Assembly: GCF_008727925.1 (NCBI RefSeq)
Contig: NZ_VTWT01000010.1
Span: 62,001 to 126,000 of the forward strand
DNA length: 64,000 nucleotides
From: Adhaeribacter soli
GTDB taxonomy: Bacteria; Bacteroidota; Bacteroidia; Cytophagales; Hymenobacteraceae
Reading direction: 5' to 3'
Each line of letters starts with the position of its first letter. The first letter of the stretch is position 1. Position numbers and translations under genes: made by a program. The notes under the pieces were generated by a model that was not told where the DNA came from, did not search any database, and saw only the letters and a program-made list of their open reading frames with translations. Positions 3,399 through 62,259 of this stretch are shown one piece after another.

Positions 3399-5573
3399 AT
3401 GATATTCCGTACCGAATTGCACCCCAGCCCGGCTGACCAAAAACTCGACCTGACCTCCAAAGCGGTTACGGTCGGTTCCTGCTTTTCGGAAGTGATCGGG
3501 CGGCAACTGGAGAAATACAAGGTAAACACCCTCTCCAACCCTTTCGGCACCATTTTCAACCCCCTTTCTGCCTGCAAACTGCTGCAGGTTTGTGCCGGCG
3601 CCGACATCGAGCTGGCCGATTCCTTTGTCGAAAATAACGGCCGCTGGTATTCCTATGACTTTCATTCTTCCTTTTCCGCCCCCACCGAAGAAGACCTTTA
3701 CGAACAGCTCGACGAGGTAATTGTAAAAACCCGCCGCTTCCTGAAACAAGCCGATGTGCTGATCCTGACCCTGGGAACGGCCAATATTTTCCGGCTGAAC
3801 ATTACGGGCGAAACCGTAGCCAACTGCCATAAATTACCGGCAGCAAACTTTACCCGCGAAACGCTGCTGCCCGAAGAAATTATTACCGCCATTGCCGAAA
3901 CGCACAGCCTGCTTCGCGAACTGAACCCGAACCTCCGCCTGGTTTTAACCGTGAGTCCGGTAAGGCACATTAAAGACACGCTCGAACTCAACAGCGTGAG
4001 CAAAGCCGTTCTCCGCCTGGCCACTCATTATCTTTCGCAGCAACTTCCTTTTGTAAGCTATTTCCCAGCCTACGAGCTGCTCATCGACGATTTGCGCGAT
4101 TACCGGTTCTACAAGGAAGACATGCTTCACCCTACTGCCACGGCGGAACAATACATCTGGGAGAAATTTTCCGGCGCGTATTTTGAAGAAACCTTCCACC
4201 TGTTTGCTCAGGAATGGGAGAAGATCTTACGGGCCAGAGAGCACAAACCGTTCCATCCGGAATCGCCGCAACACCAGGCTTTCCTGCAGAATATCATCGA
4301 AAAACTGCATACCCTTCAGGAAAAAACCGATGTAACCGAAGAACTGGCATATTTCGAAAGTCAGGTAATTGTGCTGCCGGAAGTGGTAGAAGAACCTGAT
4401 TCTGAAGAAGAGGAAGAAGAAGCGGAATTAACGCCGGAAGAAGCTCAGGAAACTGCTGCAACTGTAGAAACTGCCCTTGCTGAAACTTCTGACGAGGAAG
4501 AAGACATTGCCACGCCGGTAATGGTTGCCGTTCCGGAAGAAGCCGTGGCTCTGGAAGAGGGTTCCCGGAAGAAAAAGAAACGCAAACCAAAGCGGAAAAA
4601 GAAGAAGCCATTTGGCACCGAAGAAGCCCAGCCCATTGCCGAAGCTGCTGCAGCCGAATCGGTTATTGCAATAGACCAGGAGGAAGCAAGTGCAACAGAA
4701 ACTACGCCTGTAGTTGAAAGCACGCCCGAGCTTGGGACCGTTTTAGAAGAAACCGCCGAACCGGTAGTGGCTACTTTAGCGGCCGCCTTTACTGAACCAA
4801 CCGGCGCAACGCTATCGAAATCGGCCAAAAAACGGGCTGCCCGCAAAAAGAAAAAAGCACTGGCTGCTCAGCAAACTTCCGAAGAAGCAATGGTTCAGGA
4901 ACAAGTTGCTCCAATTGAAGAGGAAAGTATTGCTGAAACCGAAACTCCCCTTGAGATTGCGCCATCAGAACCCGTTTTAACCATTCCGGTACCGGTGGAG
5001 GAAGTAGAACCGGTTCCGTTCCAGGCAACTGAAGCGGAGCCTACGCCGGCACCTGCCCCATCAGCTTCAGCAAAAGGCCGGAAGGAAAAGCAACCAAAGA
5101 AAACAGCCGCAAAAGGCAAGAAAAAAGAATGGCCGGATCTGTTTGCCCCGGCCATTCCTGCCGAAGCAGCTCCGGTAGAAGTTCCTGCCTTAACGGAAGC
5201 GCCTGAGCCTGAACCGGAAGTAAATCCGTTACTGGAAATACTTTCTGATTGGGAGAATATCCCAATGCCGACTGCTCCAAAACGCCGCGGACGACCTAAA
5301 AAAGAAGAACCGGCAAAGGTCGAAGCTCCGGTTCCTGCCGCGACACCGGTTACTCCCGAACCTGTGCAAACGGAAGTACTTCCAACCGAAACGGTTACAC
5401 CGGAACCGGCATCCGTACCGGTTTCCGAAACAGCTGAAGAAACAACCGTAGCAACGGAACAACCGAAAAAGAAACGGACCTACAACCGGAAACCAAAGCC
5501 GGAAACAACCTCCGCTCCTGCTCCCACCCCGGCACCGAAAGGCCGCCGGAAAAAAGCAACTCCGGAAGGATAA
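3399..5573 (+). CDS. GSCFA-family (SGNH-like) protein with a long charged tail and AT-hook-like motif
   Basis: Residues about 20-290 form a GSCFA domain: the name-giving GSCFS is at residues 26-30, a TLGTANIF block follows near residue 126 and DMLHPTA near residue 241. These resemble SGNH/GDSL hydrolase blocks (Ser, Gly, Asp-x-x-His), so an esterase-like activity is plausible but unproven for the family. From about residue 330 to 724 the protein is low-complexity: long Glu/Ala/Pro/Val-rich stretches interrupted by lysine-rich patches (RKKKKRKPKRKKKK, KGRKEKQPKK) and, near residue 628, the sequence KRRGRPKKEE, which matches an AT-hook core (RGRP). The tail more than doubles the usual GSCFA length. 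There is no signal peptide, so it is probably cytoplasmic. It stands alone, with its own terminator. Confidence 0.85.
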   Translation: MIFRTELHPSPADQKLDLTSKAVTVGSCFSEVIGRQLEKYKVNTLSNPFGTIFNPLSACKLLQVCAGADIELADSFVENNGRWYSYDFHSSFSAPTEEDLYEQLDEVIVKTRRFLKQADVLILTLGTANIFRLNITGETVANCHKLPAANFTRETLLPEEIITAIAETHSLLRELNPNLRLVLTVSPVRHIKDTLELNSVSKAVLRLATHYLSQQLPFVSYFPAYELLIDDLRDYRFYKEDMLHPTATAEQYIWEKFSGAYFEETFHLFAQEWEKILRAREHKPFHPESPQHQAFLQNIIEKLHTLQEKTDVTEELAYFESQVIVLPEVVEEPDSEEEEEEAELTPEEAQETAATVETALAETSDEEEDIATPVMVAVPEEAVALEEGSRKKKKRKPKRKKKKPFGTEEAQPIAEAAAAESVIAIDQEEASATETTPVVESTPELGTVLEETAEPVVATLAAAFTEPTGATLSKSAKKRAARKKKKALAAQQTSEEAMVQEQVAPIEEESIAETETPLEIAPSEPVLTIPVPVEEVEPVPFQATEAEPTPAPAPSASAKGRKEKQPKKTAAKGKKKEWPDLFAPAIPAEAAPVEVPALTEAPEPEPEVNPLLEILSDWENIPMPTAPKRRGRPKKEEPAKVEAPVPAATPVTPEPVQTEVLPTETVTPEPASVPVSETAEETTVATEQPKKKRTYNRKPKPETTSAPAPTPAPKGRRKKATPEG

Positions 5574-5612: not shown

Positions 5613-5655
5613 TGTCATCCTGAACGCCAGTGAAGGACCTCGTCGGCCAAAAGCA
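5613..5655 (+). repeat. Dispersed GTCATCCTGA repeat, copy 1
   Basis: The stretch beginning tgtcatcctgaacgccagtg and continuing aaggacctcgtcggcc recurs at 8362-8405 on the opposite strand and at 22910-22952 on the same strand. Copies 1 and 2 face each other and flank the YyaL-type gene. A run of this kind is a common non-coding interspersed repeat in Bacteroidota. Confidence 0.8.
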
Positions 5656-5747
5656 GAATAGCCAAAACAGAAGTTCCTGCAATTCGCCGAAAGTTGTTTC
5701 GCTATCTCTCAACAGGACATAATTAAAAATTGGCAGAATATTATACC

Positions 5748-6016
5748 CCGGTCTGTGTCGCACAGACCGGAGCACTGCCGGAAGGTAAAGCCAGATTTCA
5801 AGTAGCAGAATGGTTGTTGGTGAAAACACAAACGCAATGCTGTTTCGGACATCTTTGTCCGAAACTAACCCTGGTGCGGACATCCATGTCCGCGAGTGCA
5901 GTTACGGGGACAAGGATGTCCCCTGCAGGTTGCTTCCAGACATAGATGTCCGGAAGAGCAGTAAAAGCATTTAAATAATACTCCGTAGCGTAGGGTTTAA
6001 ACCCTACGCTACGGAG
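5748..6016. repeat. Array of six hairpins with different stems, ending in a 36-bp perfect palindrome
   Basis: Six stems lie in 270 non-coding bases: 5748-5770 ccggtctgtg/cacagaccgg (loop tcg); 5842-5865 gtttcggaca/tgtccgaaac (loop tctt); 5876-5893 gcggaca/tgtccgc (loop tcca); 5906-5923 ggggaca/tgtcccc (loop agga); 5934-5955 ttccagaca/tgtccggaa with one mismatch (loop taga); and 5981-6016, a 36-base palindrome perfect over its full length. Hairpins 2-5 share the core GGACA-N4-TGTCC while their outer base pairs and loops differ, so base pairing rather than sequence is kept. Between hairpins 1 and 2 lies tggttgttggtgaaaacac (5811-5829), which recurs at 24956-24974. No protein gene is credible here. 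Confidence 0.8.
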
Positions 6017-6099
6017 ATAAATCCATTCCCGTTAAAAAACGCTATCTTTTCGACCAAAAAACCCGGTACCCGTAAAACGTCTGTTTAAATTCCTGCACC

Positions 6100-8139
6100 A
6101 TGCCTGATACCTCCCGCAAGCCGAACCGTTTAGTCCACGAATCGAGCCCTTATTTGCTGCAACACGCGCATAACCCCGTAGATTGGTACCCGTGGGGGCA
6201 GGAAGCGCTGGAAAAGGCAAAGAAAGAAGATAAGCTCATTATTGTGAGTATCGGGTATGCGGCTTGCCACTGGTGCCACGTAATGGAGCACCAGAGTTTC
6301 GAAAATGAGCAGATTGCCCGGGTAATGAATGAGCGCTACGTGTGCATAAAAGTAGACCGCGAAGAACGCCCCGATGTGGACCAGGTGTATATGGATGCCG
6401 TACAAGCCATGGGTTTGCAGGGCGGCTGGCCACTGAACGTATTTCTGAACCCGGAGGCCAAGCCCTTTTACGGCGGCACGTATTTTCCGCCGGAGCAATG
6501 GATCCAGGTGCTTGAAAACGTGGCTACTGCCTACCAGAAACAACGAACCGAACTGGATGCCTCCGCGGACCAGTTTGCCGAGCACCTGAACGCCGATGAA
6601 CTCTCCAAATACGGCCTGAAATTCGAAGAAACCAATACTTTTTCCGAAGAAGAACTCACCCAGCTTTACCAGAAATTCAGCAAAAACTACGATAAAAAAC
6701 GCGGCGGTATAGGGAAGGCGCCTAAGTTCCCGATGCCGGCCAATTACCAGTTTTTATTGCGCTACTACTACCATTCCAAAGATCCGGCCGCGCTGGAGCA
6801 ACTGAACCTTACCCTCACCGAAATGGCGGGCGGCGGCATCTACGATCAGGCGGGCGGCGGCTTTGCGCGCTACTCCACCGACGAGGACTGGCTAGTGCCC
6901 CACTTCGAAAAAATGCTTTATGATAACGGGCAACTGGTAAGTTTGTATTCCGAAGCTTATCAGGTTACCAAAGATCCGCTTTACAAGGAAGTAGTGTACG
7001 AAACCATCGGCTTTGTAGAACGCGAACTGATGAGTCCGGAAGGCGGCTTTTATTCCTCCCTGGATGCGGACAGCGAAGGCGAAGAAGGCAAATTCTACGT
7101 TTTCACCAAAGAGGAACTGGAAAAGATCTTAGGGCAGGAAGAGCCGCTTTTCTCGAAATACTACCACGTAACGGCCGCCGGAAACTGGGAACACGGCCGG
7201 AATATTCTGCACCGGAAAGTAAGCGATGAAGTATTTGCCAAAGAAAACGAACTGGAGATTGCGGTGTTGCAGGAATTGGTCCCCGGTTGGAAACAGAAAA
7301 TCCTCCAGGTGCGGCTCGAACGCGTTCGCCCGAGCCTCGACGATAAGATCCTACTGGGTTGGAATGCGCTGATGCTACGCGGCCTGACCGATGCCTACAA
7401 AGCTTTCGGGGAAAAGGAATTTCTGGATCTGGCCGTAATAAATGCCGAATTCCTGCTGATGAACCTGAAAATAGAAGCCCAGCTGTACCGGAACTTTAAA
7501 CAAGGCAACGCGAGCATTCCGGCTTTCCTGGAAGATTACGCCCTGCTCATAAGAGCGCTGATCGGGCTGTACGAAGTTTCGTTTGAAGAAAAGTATTTAC
7601 TGGAAGCCAAGAGATTAACCGAATACGTGCTAGAGAATTTCGCCGATGCAAACGATTTCCTGTTCTTCTACACCGATAAAAATGCCGAGAAACTGATCGC
7701 CCGCAAAAAGGAATTCTTCGATAACGTAATTCCGGCTTCCAACTCAGTAATGGCGCAAAACCTGTGGCAACTAGGCTTGTTTTTTGATGAAAGCAGCTAT
7801 TCCGAACGCGCCGTAAACATGCTGAAAAAGGTGCAGGAACTCGTAGTAAAAGAACCGGGCTACGTGGCTAATTGGGCCATTTTGTACTTGCAGCAACTGA
7901 AACCCGCTGCCGAAATTGCCATTGCCGGACCGGAGGCCGATACTTTAAGGGAAGAACTAAGCACTTTTTTCCTGCCAAATGCTATCGTTTGCGGTACCTC
8001 CCGCCCCGAAAGTCAGCTTCCCTTACTCGAAGACCGCGCCGGAATGACGGATAGTACGCTGATCTACGTTTGCTTCAATAAAACCTGCCAGATGCCGGTG
8101 GAAACGGTGAAAGAGGCTTTGGCGCAACTGGGGGTTTAG
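6100..8139 (+). CDS. YyaL/SPATA20-type protein: thioredoxin-like domain (DUF255) plus (alpha/alpha)6-barrel
   Basis: The 679-residue protein matches the YyaL/SSP411 family in length and layout. Residues about 1-165 are the DUF255 thioredoxin-like domain, with NPVDWYPW at about 25-32 and the CHWC motif at 56-59, followed by [13 protein letters not shown] and GGWPLNVFL. Residues about 185-600 resemble the helical six-hairpin glycosidase-like barrel ([44 protein letters not shown]). The family is widespread but its biochemical role is not settled. There is no signal peptide, so it is cytoplasmic. It is a lone gene, with a non-coding hairpin array upstream and inverted dispersed repeats on both sides. 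Confidence 0.9.
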
Positions 8140-21654: not shown

Positions 21655-21831
21655 GTGCGTAGAATTAGAGAAGCGTTCTACGCACGTTCGGTTTACCAGT
21701 CTCTGACTGACGTAAACTTTTTCAGTTGATTCAGAAGCCTGAATTTCAGGTAAATCTGATTTATGGGAAACGCCAATCTGGAGATTGGCTATCTGTTGAT
21801 GCTTAGAGCGCTCCGCTAACTCTACGCATAA
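21655..21831. repeat. Hairpin-rich element with inverted ends
   Basis: Stems are gtgcgtagaa/ttctacgcac (21655-21685), gttta..cagtc/gactg..taaac (21691-21717), cctga/tcagg near 21739 and gccaatc/gattggc with loop tgga (21772-21789). The left end tgcgtagaattagagaagcg recurs inverted near 21805-21831 (gagcgctccgctaactctac, gca), giving the element terminal inverted repeats of about 20 bases. The hairpins are of the same size class as those at 5748-6016 and 47397-47519. The 312-base spacer holds no gene. Confidence 0.6.
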
Positions 21832-24726: not shown

Positions 24727-24984
24727 GCGAAGCGTAACTTGTGCCCCCCCTATTGGTCAGTTTGTAACTGACCTTGCCTGCAAGGCAAACATCCCGCCTG
24801 CTATGGGCTACTGAAATGGATATCAACAACTTCCGCCTTCACAAACTGGCTAACAGAAGAAAGTCACACGTTACGGCATCGCCTAAACTTGCAATTGGCC
24901 TTTTAATTCAGAGCTCCAATAAGCTTTATTTGTCAGGTAAAAGCAGACTGATGGATGGTTGTTGGTGAAAACACGCAACAACGG
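24727..24984. repeat. Hairpin-rich non-coding element in the 24604-25055 spacer
   Basis: The element contains a run of seven C (24743-24749), the stems ggtcagtt/aactgacc with loop tgt (24754-24772) and ttgcct/aggcaa with loop gca (24773-24787), and, near its right end, tggttgttggtgaaaacac (24956-24974), which then closes a stem with gcaacaac. That last motif also stands in the hairpin array at 5811-5829. Its left end ttagcgaagcgtaac resembles the ends of the 21655-21831 element. No gene is visible in the spacer. Confidence 0.6.
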
Positions 24985-47349: not shown

Positions 47350-47671
47350 GTCCCCCTTTGGAGGGCAGGGCCGTTTCATTCTAAACTAAAACAGCTTTTT
47401 CGGATATTTTTATCCGAAAACTTCCTGCTGGGGATCTATTGATCCCCGTAATGTGGCCTGAAAATGGTCAACGCGGGTTAATAAACCCGCAACAGGATGC
47501 TTCCGGATCGATAGATCCGAAAGAGCAAACGGATTCTCCCCTTGAGGGGAGCCAGAGGGGTGTTTACACTTGCTAATAATTATCAAATAACGTGTTTACA
47601 CCCCTATAATCCCCTCTAGGGGATAGTCATTTGCCAGAATGAAACAGCCTTGGCTCCAAAGGGGGACTTTT
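47350..47671. repeat. Nested inverted-repeat element containing a hairpin array and a second inverted repeat
   Basis: Outer arms: gtccccctttggag (47350-47363) with ctccaaagggggac near 47656-47669, and ccgtttcattct (47371-47382) with agaatgaaac near 47636. Inside the outer pair is a four-hairpin array, loops all four bases: 47398-47419 tttcggata/tatccgaaa; 47430-47447 ggggatc/gatcccc; 47473-47490 gcgggtt/aacccgc; 47504-47519 cggatc/gatccg. This is followed by another inverted repeat, tctccccttgagggga... with cctctaggggat and gtgtttacac facing its complement (about 47525-47625). The whole 444-base spacer 47316-47759 carries no gene apart from these elements and the ribBA terminator. Confidence 0.75.
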
Positions 47672-62124: not shown

Positions 62125-62204
62125 TAACGCACTTCAGTTTTCAAGCCCAAAATCCACGAAAAAGCTACCATAATTTTTCAAACAGAAACGTTACCGTTTT
62201 AAAC

Positions 62205-62240
62205 AAAAAAGTGCTGAAGCTTCCGCTTCAGCACTTTTTT
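62205..62240. terminator. Bidirectional terminator between the membrane-protein gene and ald
   Basis: A 16-bp stem, aaaaaagtgctgaagc with gcttcagcactttttt, has the loop ttcc. Confidence 0.92.
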
Positions 62241-62259
62241 GTTTCTATGCAGCAATCGC

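Follow-up and report, generated by a model that had tools for sequence, protein, structure and literature searches.

A four-hairpin intergenic array of Adhaeribacter soli, very probably a mobile passenger of REP-associated (Y1/HUH) transposases in Bacteroidota

The hairpin cluster at positions 5748 to 6016 of the window (the whole 64-kb stretch of Adhaeribacter soli DNA analyzed here) contains a four-hairpin array, in all probability a mobile passenger of a family of REP-associated (Y1/HUH) transposases (RAYTs) in Bacteroidota. We consider it highly likely that the array, as a REPIN-like mobile element lacking autonomy, belongs to a Bacteroidota RAYT of the TnpA_Y1 subclass 2.6, which would bind, cleave and transpose it, with a putative role for the GCT trinucleotide at its foot. 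The original prediction had suggested that a Y1-type transposase (RAYT) moves the hairpins as a REP-like family, and this proposal is supported by linkage to RAYT genes, compensatory changes in the stems and coevolution of loops and RAYTs, from which we infer the movement.

All six hairpins predicted between 5748 and 6016 could be read from the sequence. The array itself occupies positions 5839 to 5959, with the layout 5'-GCT-H1-H2-H3-H4-AGC-3' (four hairpins in ~121 bp). The features of the site, together with a related element found farther along the window, are as follows.

3399 to 5573, plus strand: upstream gene, GSCFA-domain protein (Pfam PF08885, 284 bits)
5617 to 6034 (approximate, edges judged by eye), no strand assigned: nested repeat block absent from the orthologous site of the sister species
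5748 to 5770, no strand assigned: hairpin of another dispersed repeat, 10-bp stem (one partial second copy elsewhere in the genome, a 32-bp match at 91%)
5811 to 5829, plus strand: fragment of a repeat of the TTGTTGGTG-AAAA-CACCAACAA family, cut short at this site (17-mer copies genome-wide)
5839 to 5959, plus strand: class A four-hairpin element (RAYT-associated REP array), 121 bp, GCT...AGC (CM R1 match)
5839 to 5841, plus strand: H1 foot tag GCT, unpaired, with AGC as its mirror image at 5957 to 5959
5842 to 5865, plus strand: H1, 10-bp stem, loop TCTT, forward polarity (sequence; pairs included in the covariation count)
5876 to 5893, plus strand: H2, 7-bp stem, loop TCCA, forward polarity (sequence; covariation count)
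5906 to 5923, plus strand: H3, 7-bp stem, loop AGGA, reverse polarity, mirror of H2 (sequence; covariation count)
5933 to 5956, plus strand: H4, 10-bp stem with one A/C mismatch, loop TAGA, reverse polarity, mirror of H1 (sequence; covariation count)
5981 to 6016, no strand assigned: 36-bp perfect palindrome with GTAG...CTAC (separate dispersed palindrome family, at many loci and in the sister species)
6100 to 8139, plus strand: downstream gene, DUF255/thioredoxin-fold protein (YyaL-like; Pfam PF03190, 243 bits)
47394 to 47526, minus strand: class B four-hairpin element, 133 bp, cores GGATC/GGGTT/GGATA on the same framework (CM R1 match, 78 bits)

H1 reads GTTTCGGACA-TCTT-TGTCCGAAAC, H2 GCGGACA-TCCA-TGTCCGC, H3 GGGGACA-AGGA-TGTCCCC and H4 CTTCCAGACA-TAGA-TGTCCGGAAG. 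The core GGACA-N4-TGTCC, ascribed beforehand to four hairpins, is exact in three of them, whereas that of H4 is AGACA-TAGA-TGTCC, with one A/C mismatch. The array had also been thought to end in a 36-base perfect palindrome; the palindrome is present at 5981 to 6016, but it belongs to a separate repeat family and, like the hairpin at 5748 to 5770 and the 19-mer at 5811 to 5829, is nested beside the array. The 19-mer (TGGTTGTTGGTGAAAACAC) was found, as anticipated, both there and at 24956 to 24974, and the 17-mer of the TTGTTGGTG-AAAA-CACCAACAA family has at least 25 exact copies genome-wide among the matches listed. Hairpins of the type GTTGTTGGTG-AAAA-CACCAACAAC (5811 to 5829, 24956 to 24974; L016 to L045) form another intergenic repeat family and often occur in inverted pairs (L021/L022, L030/L031). 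The palindrome family (CTCCGTAGCGTAGGGTTTAAACCCTACGCTACGGAG, with GTAG...CTAC ends) resembles “double foot” GTAG REPs and is also frequent in the sister species, which has no close RAYT. The GTAG...CTAC ends in common with the GTAG and “double foot” REPs described in PMC3733652 and PMC6006769 are those of the palindrome, not of the array. The whole nest of repeats sits between the terminator-like hairpin of the upstream gene and the leader of the downstream gene. Another strong terminator-like hairpin (20-bp perfect stem, 4-nt loop and a T-run at its end) was seen at 62201 to 62244.

The pattern GGACANNNNTGTCC (GGACA-N4-TGTCC) occurs 77 times in the 4.97-Mb genome, against 7 occurrences of the reversed control pattern. 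A covariance model (CM R1) built from eight copies, that at 5839 to 5959 included, produced 106 matches on both strands at ~58 distinct places, so the similar arrays on whose existence the original prediction depended are there. The copy in the window (G000:C1:67839-67959) scored 136 bits against this model, of whose seed it also forms part. None of the 58 array places overlaps an ATG open reading frame of at least 200 amino acids, compared with 75% of random 121-bp windows. The hairpins are genuine and well in excess of what chance would give. The genomic copies include a class A of 121 bp, with mostly GGACA cores, a class B of 133 bp, with GGATC/GGGTT/GGATA cores, and a class C of few copies, with GGATT/GGATC cores and 3-nt loops, adjoining the gene that we call RAYT-C. 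No obvious cognate RAYT for the class B arrays was found in the genome.

In copies from relatives, conservation drops sharply outside GCT/AGC, with only a weak T before and a weak A after. Many class A copies lie at the center of a longer inverted repeat with GGTTTAAACCC-ATGCCGTCAA arms, class B copies lie between GTTTCATTCT...AGAATGAAAC arms, and Pontibacter copies lie inside GAGCG...CGCTC palindromes. These outer arms, seen at L133, L134, L147 and others, L164 to L177 and L264, vary by class or genus. When array-free copies of the outer GGTTTAAACCC repeat were sought as empty sites, nearly all matches flanked an array and no clean one appeared.

Three other hairpin groups of the window had been described as similar. 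The one at 47397 to 47519 does share the four-hairpin architecture, with other cores (47394 to 47526), but this does not extend to the remaining two. The group at 21655 to 21831 instead matches repeats around a different, diverged RAYT (loci L052/L188), and for the hairpins at 1767 to 1932 (CCCCGAAAGC...GGGG and CCCCGATATGCATCGGGG) no copy was found elsewhere in the compared part of the genome. A single family for all hairpin groups of the window was thus rejected, as they match different repeats.

To evaluate covariation, 69 copies from this genome and its relatives were aligned with MAFFT on sequence, not fitted to the structure. Pairing was found in 96.9% of stem cells, compared with 87.2% after shuffling, and both sides had changed in 19 of the 35 stem pairs. 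Cells with both sides changed numbered 239, against 70 expected from shuffles and at most 16 when the partner was slid, although copies within a genome and genomes within the family are related, which makes the permutation p-values indicative. The joint change of both stem sides, originally noted from the sequence, is therefore borne out statistically as an excess of compensatory changes. The innermost pairs alternate among CA/TG, TT/AA, CT/AG and CG/CG, within a nearly fixed GGA/TCC surrounding. Mismatches of the G-T (41) and A-C (38) types are equally frequent in the stems, indicating that no strand is favored in the element's own orientation.

A search for the Y1 transposase that the original prediction had invoked recovered seven such genes, some with array hairpins beside them. 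The same GGACA hairpins adjoin both RAYT-A1 (G000:C12:56405-56947, 181 amino acids) and RAYT-A2 (C12:58269), and RAYT-C (C2:40277) is enclosed by a GGATT version of the framework in the order F10-F7-gene-R7-R10. RAYT-A1 scored 113 bits against the NCBIfam equivalog NF047646 (REP_Tyr_transpos; cut-off, 80) and 34.6 bits against PF01797 (cut-off, 23), and carries the motifs NHLH, FWQ and YIHQNP. The diverged RAYT at C5:92194 carries repeats of the 21655-to-21831 type. This gene (L188) and another diverged RAYT (L187, C2:52804) have their own cognate hairpins, of the CGCCAATC/GCGTAGAG and CGAGCC types, so that several RAYT-repeat pairs coexist in one genome. Two IS200-like Y1 transposases of 147 amino acids (L046 and L047) are flanked by palindromes of their own (CCGTCTGCTTTAGCTGACGG; CCCCTGCCT...AGGCAGGGG), some of which recur elsewhere in the genome.

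When genome_contigs, with one genome for each of 84,980 species, was scanned, 80 related RAYT loci were obtained, the majority of them from Bacteroidota. Of these 80, 79 have the HuH motif, 71 have WQ and 48 show the pattern of the Y motif. Perfect hairpins were 16 times denser within 400 bp of these RAYTs (4.28 per kb) than more than 1 kb away (0.27 per kb). A common grammar recurs over the 80 Bacteroidota RAYT loci. Two hairpins, with stems of 10 and 7 bp and ~9 nt between them, lie on one side of the gene and their mirror image on the other, usually in the order F10-F7-gene-R7-R10 (median spacing of 9 nt between two forward or two reverse hairpins). The loops are strand-polar, the nearest upstream hairpin being forward in 54 of 71 loci and the nearest downstream one reverse in 44 of 61. 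Directly 5' of the 10-bp stem there is a GCT (G 0.93, C 0.78, T 0.88 in 172 hairpins from 71 RAYT loci), outside which conservation is at most 0.37 in the same set. It has no matching partner 3' of the stem, and it thus occupies the position of GTAG in canonical REPs. On the 5' side of the 7-bp hairpin the context is CTG-like and weaker. Most simply read, F10-F7 and R7-R10 would be the two ends of the transposase element, and the array the same element minus the gene. Among 17 array-RAYT neighbors measured in relatives of the same family alone (the two arrays of the A. soli genome itself being excluded), 16 arrays were upstream and 1 downstream; the upstream ones were 27 to 72 nt from the gene (mode, 28 nt), always in the same orientation. 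One might speculate that this regular spacing could let a RAYT act on the leader of its own gene.

The length of the loop (3 or 4 nt) changed only 3 times on the RAYT tree, whereas 300 label shuffles averaged 13 changes and never gave fewer than 9; the core sequence changed 13 times, compared with a shuffle mean of 20.6. Across 200 genomes of the family, arrays were present in 31 of the 37 with a close RAYT and in 20 of the 163 without one (Fisher test, 4e-17, which is uncorrected for relatedness and so overstates the association). To explain the latter 20 genomes, one has to assume that the gene was lost, that another RAYT is involved or that the arrays were gained horizontally. The sister species G001, of the same genus, had no close RAYT at an E value of 1e-30 and a handful of degraded array matches. 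Its intergenic region between the GSCFA and DUF255 genes is array-free and spans ~123 nt, against 526 nt in A. soli; in the global alignment of the two, short matches are scattered through the insert, the boundaries of which were read by eye. From this comparison, the repeat nest appears to have been either gained in A. soli or lost in G001. In Pontibacter, one array present in G084 and G098 is absent at the aligned place in G120 and, on a search match alone, in G017, and another array of G084 is absent in G118. The empty orthologous sites are diverged or lie within other repeats, and a joined-flank search in Pontibacter (G120, G017 and G118) recovered no junction exact to the base, as the arrays there are embedded in other repeats.

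How such a unit might move can be outlined by analogy. It would consist of the left end (a 10-bp plus a 7-bp hairpin) and the right end (the mirrored 7-bp plus 10-bp) of the transposase's element, with the gene missing, and its hairpins would fold on single-stranded DNA, for example on the lagging-strand template. Each strand would present two correctly read hairpins (H1 and H2 on one, H4 and H3 on the other), and the RAYT would recognize three features: the stem, the side of the loop (TC.. or TGY on the readable strand) and, at the foot, the GCT left unpaired. It would then cleave near the foot via a 5'-phosphotyrosine, as is known for TnpA_REP and IS608, and move or copy the unit into other intergenic sites. 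The stems would be selected to keep pairing while their letters drift, because each strand offers two correctly read hairpins and the folded single strand is what such enzymes recognize. Known TnpA_REP enzymes cut between C and T, a dinucleotide that occurs in the GCT foot of the array. TnpA_REP and IS608 bind hairpins folded from single-stranded DNA, recognize both loop and foot and cut close to the latter, and reverse-complementing the loop abolishes the activity of Stenotrophomonas REPs, a dependence on orientation that matches the polar loops described here (PMC8266576). Tentatively, and with considerable doubt, we further suggest a recognition grammar for subclass 2.6 in which GCT replaces GTAG as foot or guide and each end carries a doublet of unequal hairpins, possibly one per monomer, so that the array would be a complete minimal transposon across Bacteroidota.

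Subclass 2.6 (Bertels group 5) RAYTs come from Bacteroidetes, have ~179 amino acids and carry NH[LIV]H, WQ and YIH[QN]NP, and PMC6006769 describes their flanks as “atypical secondary structures,” weaker and devoid of GT[AG]G, found by manual inspection. The host phylum, a length of ~180 amino acids, the motifs and the non-GT[AG]G flanking hairpins copied elsewhere in the genome coincide here, and RAYT-A1, with its motifs, length, mostly Bacteroidota relatives and flanking hairpins, would by sequence belong to this subclass. What the present analysis describes is the four-hairpin unit, the GCT foot, the loop polarity, the covariation and the coevolution of loop length; this anatomy is new relative to the “atypical” label of that paper, although some of the hairpins may already be in its supplement. 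Proteobacterial REPs, BIMEs and REPINs are likewise short, intergenic, inverted-pair palindromes that flank RAYTs, coevolve with them and show compensatory changes (PMC2817692, PMC3116915), but they have a GTAG/GTGG foot and one hairpin per half, whereas the arrays have a GCT foot and two hairpins of different stem length per half. IS200/IS605 elements (IS608 and ISDra2) also combine a Y1 HUH enzyme with hairpins and a foot sequence near both ends; they are, however, autonomous, with one hairpin per end, in contrast to a low-copy RAYT and many gene-less units here. In the functional sense, the array resembles a REP/REPIN, being a dispersed, intergenic, inverted-pair palindrome that is linked to and coevolves with a RAYT. 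The GT[AG]G that defines canonical REPs at the 5' foot is not found, the foot being GCT, and we therefore file the array as a REP variant.

Other explanations have to account for the same data. Chance hairpins in AT/GC-biased spacers have nothing beyond short loops in their favor and were already refuted by the 77 matches against 7 in the control and by the ~58 homologous places, which leaves them practically no probability. The strong covariation and the intergenic placement would also fit a structured regulatory RNA (attenuator, riboswitch-like or 3'-end stabilizer) conserved for its RNA fold. However, Rfam gave no match within the 64-kb window at curated gathering cut-offs, copies adjoin unrelated genes and RAYTs, and the array at the window site is absent in the sister species, which means that neither flanking gene requires it at that place. 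A family transcribed from a single strand should also favor G-U, against the parity of G-T and A-C mismatches, a symmetry that bears on an RNA of fixed strand and not on RNA effects after insertion in random orientation. We consider the RNA explanation very unlikely.

Past spread followed by domestication, with the arrays now serving a host function as sites for gyrase, IHF or Pol I or in mRNA 3' protection, gains some credit from such roles of proteobacterial REPs, cited in PMC6006769, and from the arrays persisting in 20 genomes without a close RAYT. It is nonetheless quite unlikely, as the copies in the sister species are few and degraded and loop length tracks the transposase. The inverted-repeat arms of classes A (GGTTTAAACCC-ATGCCGTCAA) and B (GTTTCATTCT...AGAATGAAAC) and the Pontibacter palindromes could point to a larger composite element moved by another transposase, the link to RAYTs being secondary. 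This is also unlikely, because many copies lack such flanks, conservation in relatives ends at GCT/AGC, the outer repeats vary between genera around a constant array and the array is present at RAYT loci.

REP elements are known mainly from proteobacteria, where GTAG defines them, and the mobile passenger proposed here now gives an explicit anatomy to an uncharacterized Bacteroidota branch. Its stem letters drift by paired changes, while the loop side and the GCT foot stay. The hairpins are short, single-stranded candidate substrates that can be tested. They also serve as a warning that hairpins of this kind, covarying between the genes of Bacteroidota, can be taken for regulatory RNAs by mistake.
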